32,489 nt of DNA from Clostridia bacterium (GTDB taxonomy: Bacteria; Bacillota; Clostridia; Lachnospirales; Anaerotignaceae): NCBI GenBank assembly GCA_029098265.1, contig JAQXNZ010000050.1:1-32489 (forward strand), given 5' to 3'. Below the pieces are notes generated by a model, which did not search any database, was not told the origin of the DNA, and saw only the letters and a program-made list of their open reading frames with translations. Shown here one piece after another: positions 4,805-32,484 of the stretch. Positions within the stretch are counted from its first letter, which is position 1. Each line of letters opens with the position of its first letter. Position numbers and translations under genes: made by a program.

Positions 4805-4852
4805 ATATACAGCAGTAAAGCTCAGACATTGCAATTACGCCCCTTTTAATAA

Positions 4853-5620
4853 TCAGACCTGTTTAGGGTCATTTATAGTACATACAATATATCCTATTAC
4901 TTCATCCACATCGTTTTCAACACATCTGAATTTACCATCTCGTATGCTGTAGTATTTTGTGATTCCGTGTTCGGTTTTTCTTTTGGCGATAAAAATGTTA
5001 CCGCCTCTTATTATAATGCTGTTTTCATTGCCTATGGGATTTCTGTCGTTGGCGACAAGAAGTATTTCGTATGGAGTATATAGCGGCATATAATTTTCAC
5101 AGGAAAGCTGAAAACCAATGAATACTTTTGAGGAAATGTCTTTATCAAGAAAGCTTATATCAATACTATCAAAATCATTTGTAGGTTTTAAGCATCCGTT
5201 GTTCTGGCACAGCGGATGCATTACATTTATTATTCTTTTGCCCTCATGCCCCTTTTCCAGAGCTGCCTGATGATTTATAAACCACTTAATCAGATGCAGA
5301 GAATTTTTTGACAGAGTTCTCGACTTTACTATTGCATCTCTTGTCATTTCATTTATGGTTTCTGCTCCTACAAGCTCATCTATACTTACTCCGAGGGCTA
5401 TTGCAAGCTTTACTGCTGTAGACAGCTTGCAGTCCTGAGAATTTCCGTAAAGGAAAGTATTAATAGTGGAAAAAGGAACGTCTGAAGCTTCCGAAATCTC
5501 TCTGATTGTTATATCTTTATCGTCGATATATTTAAAGAGATTATTCCTGAATGCAGATATGTAATCGTTTCGGTCGGACGATAATTTCTGCGAAATTTGG
5601 ATTAATTTTTCTTTGTCCAT
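4853..5620 (-). CDS. XRE-family regulator with degenerate S24-like C-terminal domain
   Basis: This 255-residue DNA-binding protein has an N-terminal helix-turn-helix (about residues 20-80: ITIREISEASDVPFSTINTFLYG, then LSTAVKLAIALGVSIDEL). A linker is followed by a C-terminal region from about 165 (FQLSCENYMPLYTPYEILLVAND... IFIAKRK... VIGYIV) that follows the layout of LexA/CI-type S24 domains. The usual catalytic Ser in the SMxP motif is replaced (NYMP), so self-cleavage is doubtful and the domain may be a dimerisation or ligand sensor. AGGAGG precedes the start, the gene has a strong promoter at 5732-5760 and a terminator of its own. It is divergent from the small DUF6514-like gene, a possible target. 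It is not obviously phage-borne. Confidence 0.85.
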   Translation of the reverse strand: MDKEKLIQISQKLSSDRNDYISAFRNNLFKYIDDKDITIREISEASDVPFSTINTFLYGNSQDCKLSTAVKLAIALGVSIDELVGAETINEMTRDAIVKSRTLSKNSLHLIKWFINHQAALEKGHEGKRIINVMHPLCQNNGCLKPTNDFDSIDISFLDKDISSKVFIGFQLSCENYMPLYTPYEILLVANDRNPIGNENSIIIRGGNIFIAKRKTEHGITKYYSIRDGKFRCVENDVDEVIGYIVCTINDPKQV

Positions 5621-31705: not shown

Positions 31706-31743
31706 ATGGACAGGACTTTAAAAAGGTGTATGTCCATTTTTTG
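31705..31743 (+). terminator. Intrinsic terminator after the PBP gene
   Basis: The stem AATGGACA / TGTCCATT with an 18-base loop is followed by six Ts; it starts at the stop codon of the gene. Confidence 0.75.
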
Positions 31744-31764
31744 TTTATCGGCATCACGATGACG

Positions 31765-32414
31765 AGGCTTTAAATTGATTGTTATACACACTCCGAGTGC
31801 GTGACTTTAGGCTTTCCGAAGCATAGGCTTCTAATTTCCGTTTTTTCGCTGTCCCAGCGAGTGCACGCAGGGGAAGGAGACCATTCAGAGTTGCGAAGCC
31901 CATTGTCTCCTGTCCTCTGTTCGCTTGTCTTGCATTGTTCGCTACCGTTCGCAATTCTGCGCAGCTCACAGAAAGTCGCTCTCCCTGCATCTGCCACAGG
32001 CAGTGGTCGAGCTTGTTTCCCCCAACGTCCCCCAATCCCTTTTGGGCGACGCTTTAAACCCAAACCAACCTGACTTTTGGATAGCTAAATAACACTTATA
32101 CATTCGCGAACTTCGCCCGCGGGACGGTTTTACAAACCATATCGCTATGTATTGCCTAGAAATATATGTTTAGACTTATGACTGCTGTGCACAACAGTAA
32201 CCCGGACGTAGGTCGGGAATGTATTGCCGTGAACTGGCTAAATAAATTTTCGCCTTGTTTGGGTTTGGAGCGTGTCCAAGAAAAGAGAGGGGGATTGGGG
32301 AGAGGAAACTGCGGACTTCGCAATTTAAGCTGTTGCCTCTCCCCAAGGTATTAGCGCTCGCCAGAGCGCAAAGGACAATACATTGGAGTGTGTATAACAA
32401 TCGACTTGAAGCCT
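31765..32414. repeat. 650-bp non-coding element with 30-bp inverted ends
   Basis: The ends 31765-31794 and 32385-32414 are inverted repeats matching at 27 of 30 positions, with a perfect 18-bp core GATTGTTATACACACTCC. Nested inside are further inverted matches: CCCCAATCCC (about 32030-32039) with GGGATTGGGG (about 32290-32300), and AAACCCAAAC (about 32056) with GTTTGGGTTT (about 32257). Local hairpins include TCGCTG-TCC-CAGCGA and GGGGAGAGG/CCTCTCCCC (about 32296-32345). Frames on both strands lack ribosome sites and look like chance. It could be a non-autonomous mobile element (MITE-like) or the gene for a large structured RNA whose ends pair; no known class is recognised. Confidence 0.65.
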
Positions 32415-32455
32415 AGGCTTCGGTAAACCTATAAATTAAAATTTAATACTATATG

Positions 32456-32484
32456 TTGAAATGCAATTAAAAAAGCGGTATACT
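32456..32484 (+). promoter_or_regulatory. Strong sigma-A promoter firing off the right edge
   Basis: TTGAAA (32456-32461), exactly 17 bases, and TATACT (32479-32484). The gene it drives lies outside the window. The 32415-32455 stretch is AT-rich with a palindrome GAAGCCTAGGCTTC at 32408-32421. Confidence 0.6.

Follow-up and report, generated by a model that had tools for sequence, protein, structure and literature searches.

A probable mobile-type, non-autonomous intergenic repeat element with divergent hairpin units in a member of the Lachnospirales

Locus and boundaries of the element

Close to the right-hand end of the window (the whole stretch of 32,489 nucleotides that was analysed), a non-coding element of about 694 bp (31743–32436) follows the gene for a penicillin-binding protein (PF00905). 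The terminator of this upstream host gene (31706–31742, forward strand) was recognised by eye as the hairpin ATGGACA...TGTCCAT followed by six T residues; an automatic terminator scan listed none, the loop of the hairpin being too long for it. Its T-run abuts the element directly. On the other side, host sequence at 32437–32484 (forward strand) comprises a probable target TA and the downstream gene's promoter (TTGAAA-17-TATACT, 32456–32484). Both signals occupy conserved positions in two sister species (G001 and G003), in agreement with the initial annotation, which had placed the element between a terminator and a strong promoter.

The orthologous site in both sister species lacks the element. 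Judged from this comparison, the element at this locus is an insertion, since the two sisters are without it but retain the terminator and the promoter on either side. The right boundary follows from the same sites: TAAAATTT, which begins at 32437, is also present in the empty sites, and on the left copies begin at (TA)GTTTATCGGC. The 650 bp stretch first delineated, 31765–32414, therefore lies within the element, which is slightly longer. At most element ends a TA stands directly outside GTTTAT; the left flank of the window copy reads TT instead, and 30–80 bp of the intergenic sequence of the sister species is missing at the window locus.

The left inverted end (31743–31794, forward strand) contains short palindromes (GGCATCACGATG; ...TTATACACACTCC), and the right inverted end (32385–32436, reverse strand) is an inverted match to it. 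The inverted ends reported at the outset are well supported, with 27 of 30 bases matching between 31765–31794 and 32385–32414 and a top inverted-match score of 21 within 31765–32414, against a maximum of 16 and a mean of 10.5 in 300 dinucleotide shuffles; the match stretches to 57 nt at 77% identity (31738–31794 with 32385–32441). The consensus of the outer inverted end is TTTTA|GTTTATCGGCATCACGATGCC...TTATACACACTCC, made up of short palindromes that are sometimes in tandem. A conserved TTATACACA in the inverted ends (31782–31794 in the window, and in other copies) looks like a DnaA box (TTATNCACA), although the likeness may be due to chance. The only open reading frames of at least 80 codons within the element encode 90–93 residues and have no Pfam match, which upholds the original view that it contains no credible gene.

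Copies in the genome and anatomy of the window copy

Searching the genome first with the stretch originally delineated and next with two further copies as queries located the element or parts of it in about 41 places, spread over many contigs in either orientation and totalling 16.2 kb or 0.76% of the 2.14 Mb assembly. The initial annotation had proposed such a count as a check, and its outcome is clearly positive. Many copies lie at contig ends, and the end of the window itself shares an identical overlap of 141 bases with contig C61, as expected for an assembly graph branching at a repeat; the actual count of insertions may be different.

Nine copies compared side by side have an outer inverted end and a shoulder hairpin on each side of a closed centre. 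The shoulder hairpins fall into three sequence types, alpha, beta and gamma, which are freely combined, and some hairpins have one strand from one arm type and the other strand from another. This mixing of arm types suggests exchange by recombination. Just inside a truncated element arm on contig C109 (L045, 1442–1849) lies a transposase fragment, named from its sequence as IS3-type; it was set aside as an apparent chance neighbour.

The copy in the window is a mosaic too, and its left unit is broken. The left hairpin unit, of the alpha type (31858–31932, reverse strand), gives a partial match of 31.7 bits to covariance model R1 in cmsearch, an insert having replaced one strand of its stem. 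This inserted module of about 105 bp (31912–32016, forward strand, with boundaries set by eye) occurs alone elsewhere, twice in C151 and in C119, and in tandem in G002. Beyond it, the inner part of the left unit is of the gamma type (GCGTCGCCC; 31991–32072, reverse strand) and scores 24.8 bits with R1. The centre (32056–32266) is closed by the stem AAACCCAAAC/GTTTGGGTTT and has a mean column identity of 87% over 15 copies, across which the stem pairs are nearly invariant and thus lend little covariation support. The right hairpin unit is of the beta type and intact (32250–32356, forward strand); it scores 78.5 bits with R1, its sequence being among the rows from which that model was built. In its stem P1 (32295–32346, forward strand), which shows compensatory changes, 32295–32312 pairs with 32329–32346, the nested internal inverted match of the initial annotation. 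The proposed pseudoknot P2 (32274–32316, forward strand) would pair GTCC at 32274–32277 with the loop sequence GGAC at 32313–32316.

Two repeated modules were observed in association with the element. One, of about 100 bp (CCTCTGTTCGCT...CTGCCACCGGCAGCGGTCG), is found singly or as tandem copies here and in G002, G012 having a short match, and several element copies carry it within their shoulder hairpins; its sites are 31912–32016 in the window (the insert described above), L042 2058–2283, L044 2097–2188, L048 1–720 and L050 at about 1440–1545. The second, of about 90 nt (ACGCCTTAGCACACCCAACGG...GGCGTCTAA), lies in the hairpin loop of some copies, with sites in L017 (C58), L011 at about 4830–4940 (C189) and L046 at about 690–780.

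Conserved fold of the hairpin unit

The core of the element is a pair of divergent hairpin units, each of about 75–90 nt and arranged as AGCGTNNCC, 5' strand of the stem, GGNNYTCGCAACTC and 3' strand of the stem. Covariation was assessed over 71 units from 17 genomes in an alignment fitted to the P1 stem. In all 12 of the P1 pairs tested both partners vary while pairing is preserved (93% of cells paired), and the structure of the whole unit is 94.5% paired, against 48–63% in slid controls. The pairing between loop and upstream segment, P2, is the more telling test, because the alignment was fitted to P1 and P2 pairing is absent from the search model. Over the 71 units 97.9% of P2 cells are paired, and sliding the P2 partner lowers pairing to 25–65%. 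The P2 pair 34–75 is GC in 22 cases, CG in 21, UA in 20 and UG in five, and two units of G080 also switch a second P2 pair (GGGC/GCCC). More than one P2 type occurs within six of the 17 genomes, which implies that the switches happened repeatedly. A loop-to-upstream pseudoknot is likely from these alignments, since P2 is 98% kept through repeated base-pair switches. Compensatory changes in the paired segments of homologues, which the initial annotation had singled out as informative, are present in P1 and P2 alike.

Adjacent units are divergent in 25 of 32 pairs (p of about 4 × 10−10 against an expectation of 25%, uncorrected for kinship within genomes), and the divergent arrangement is also found in complete or near-complete genomes of another family.

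Occurrence in relatives

When about 85,000 genomes were scanned with a degenerate DNA pattern, just three yielded the hairpin unit, a count that possibly leaves out the genome studied here. A covariance model of the unit matched 11 of 58 genomes of the family and 16 of 392 of the order, this genome included, usually in several copies; the relatives were sampled by species groups, and these fractions are not population frequencies. Units are numerous in G000, G003, G029, G289 and G328, and none was detected in the close relatives G002, G017, G011 and G035; the isolate Anaerotignum sp. MSJ-24 gives 20 matches to the model. A second covariance model gave two distant matches elsewhere in the class, each within a divergent pair. 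By these searches, the family is patchy and multi-copy in the Lachnospirales, the two distant matches coming from other Clostridia. The conserved part is the hairpin unit and not the inverted end, because the outer ends differ between species while the unit is retained.

In other genomes the genes beside the units are housekeeping genes, and no transposase recurs among the ten neighbouring proteins checked. Two elements queried against phages and plasmids gave no match, and in viral contigs there were three exact pattern matches and none with the central motif. Literature searches found no description of the repeat family.

Nature of the element

These observations are best explained if the element is one copy of a non-autonomous, mobile-looking intergenic family, a REPIN-like or MITE-like mosaic with a conserved core, an interpretation we regard as probable. 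The element is multi-copy, has inverted ends and no gene, and is absent from the orthologous site in two sisters; its core of divergent hairpin units is under strong pairing constraint and is common to other genera. An enzyme supplied in trans would recognise either the fold of the units or the inverted ends, and would move or copy the whole element into AT-rich sites, probably targeting the TA of TTTTA/TAAAA and in many cases landing immediately behind a transcription terminator. Homologous recombination between copies would then exchange arms and loops and produce the alpha, beta and gamma mosaics. The initial annotation had offered a large structured RNA or a MITE-like element; the MITE-like description is strengthened by the inverted ends, the roughly 41 places, the presence or absence between sisters and the lack of a gene.

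A less probable alternative is that the family is a class of structured non-coding RNA, in which the hairpin–pseudoknot units work as RNA and the element is their gene or carrier, with possible roles in stability, in termination or as a binding site for a protein or for an effector encoded by a transposon. The compensatory changes in P1 and P2 are in line with this, but fit DNA hairpins too; the loop CTTCGCAACTC is conserved and single-stranded, and both strands of the window copy fold far better than shuffled sequences (z of −8.4 and −6.4). Wobble pairs in P2 are exclusively U–G (six against no A–C), reflecting few independent events, whereas distinct classes of wobble in the stem number 24 G–U against 15 A–C (p = 0.2), with no significant strand bias. 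Base pairing is maintained in these sequences, and with no significant strand bias in stem wobble the data fit folded DNA as well as RNA. Against an RNA class stand the two opposed units in each element and a patchy multi-copy distribution that suits a repeat and not a housekeeping RNA. The covariance-model comparison with known RNA families that had been suggested was also negative: Rfam at gathering and relaxed thresholds gave no meaningful match in the window or related loci, the Clostridiales-2 match of 21 bits in L103 being far below the cut-off of 58.6 and amid many chance microRNA matches. Membership of the ROOL, GOLLD or OLE classes, to which the element had been likened, was rejected on the same grounds, with no match at the gathering score and none meaningful below threshold. 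The element resembles these RNAs in size and non-coding structure and differs in being multi-copy, two-fold symmetric and foldable on both strands. What survives of the structured-RNA proposal is the conserved structure, which is strong in the shoulder hairpin units.

It is also possible, if rather doubtful, that an insertion sequence, for instance a TA-targeting one of the IS630 kind, gave rise to the element as a classical MITE and that this autonomous parent has been lost, the hairpins being passengers or insulators against read-through. Like MITEs, it has inverted ends, no gene, many copies, AT-rich targets with a TA at most element ends (a probable TA target), and presence or absence between species. 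Unlike them, its conserved part is the inner hairpin unit, while the ends vary between species. The search for a mobiliser covered two transposase families, Y1 (RAYT/IS200) and IS630, and found no parent insertion sequence in either; the IS630 domain DDE_3 was unmatched in 14 genomes while control genomes gave matches, and no longer version enclosing a gene between the same ends was seen.

In REPINs, paired inverted REP hairpins form one unit. Movement by a Y1 (RAYT) transposase, with the two inverted REP hairpins as a single mobile unit, is very unlikely even though the twin inverted hairpins and many intergenic copies recall the general REPIN architecture (PMC3116915). Y1_Tnp was undetected in four unit-bearing genomes (G001, G029, G080 and G328, of which G328 is 99% complete in two contigs and G029 71% complete), and neither the 30 Y1 loci nor the Y1 copy of this genome, which carries a stop, has a unit within about 1.5 kb. 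Units of about 75–90 nt with a pseudoknot also contrast with REPs, a class of 20–40 bp tagged at one end with GTAG (PMC3733652). A Y1/RAYT partner was rejected because none was detected in these four genomes or near any unit. The sole Y1 genes found in this genome (L126, C94) and in G003 (L144) carry internal stops. REPINs and BIMEs share with the element two inverted hairpins with a spacer, intergenic location, many copies, absence of a gene and mosaic composites, but the element has larger units, covarying loop–upstream pairing, a conserved loop of 10–14 nt, long inverted ends and a structured centre.

CGTC-tagged REP elements, palindromic repeats without a dedicated transposase, are described in other phyla (PMC3733652), and the words Firmicutes and Clostridi- are absent from the text of that paper. 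The present units are likewise palindromic, lack a dedicated transposase and carry CGT(C/G) on their 5' side, but here the motif is about 20–35 nt from the stem, within the pseudoknot region.

We tentatively suggest that the divergent pseudoknotted hairpin pair could be the recognition core of an undescribed mobile element of the Clostridia, moved in trans by an enzyme that is unlinked to known repeat families and reads the fold of single-stranded DNA or RNA. If this is true, the Lachnospirales harbour a repeat family with a conserved, testable fold, nameless in Rfam and in the literature found, that breaks assemblies and inserts between terminators and promoters, and the fold offers a clear handle for finding the moving enzyme.

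Two minor observations concern units from MSJ-24. In several of them (G003:C3, C6) the match spans about 160 nt rather than 100, which suggests an insert in the loop, and the units in L049, L052 and L054 show linkage to a further repeated stretch, ...ACCTTTAAAAAGGTTCGACCTAAACTTTATAAAAATCATTT..., close to hairpins of the GGGGCTTTGCCCC type.
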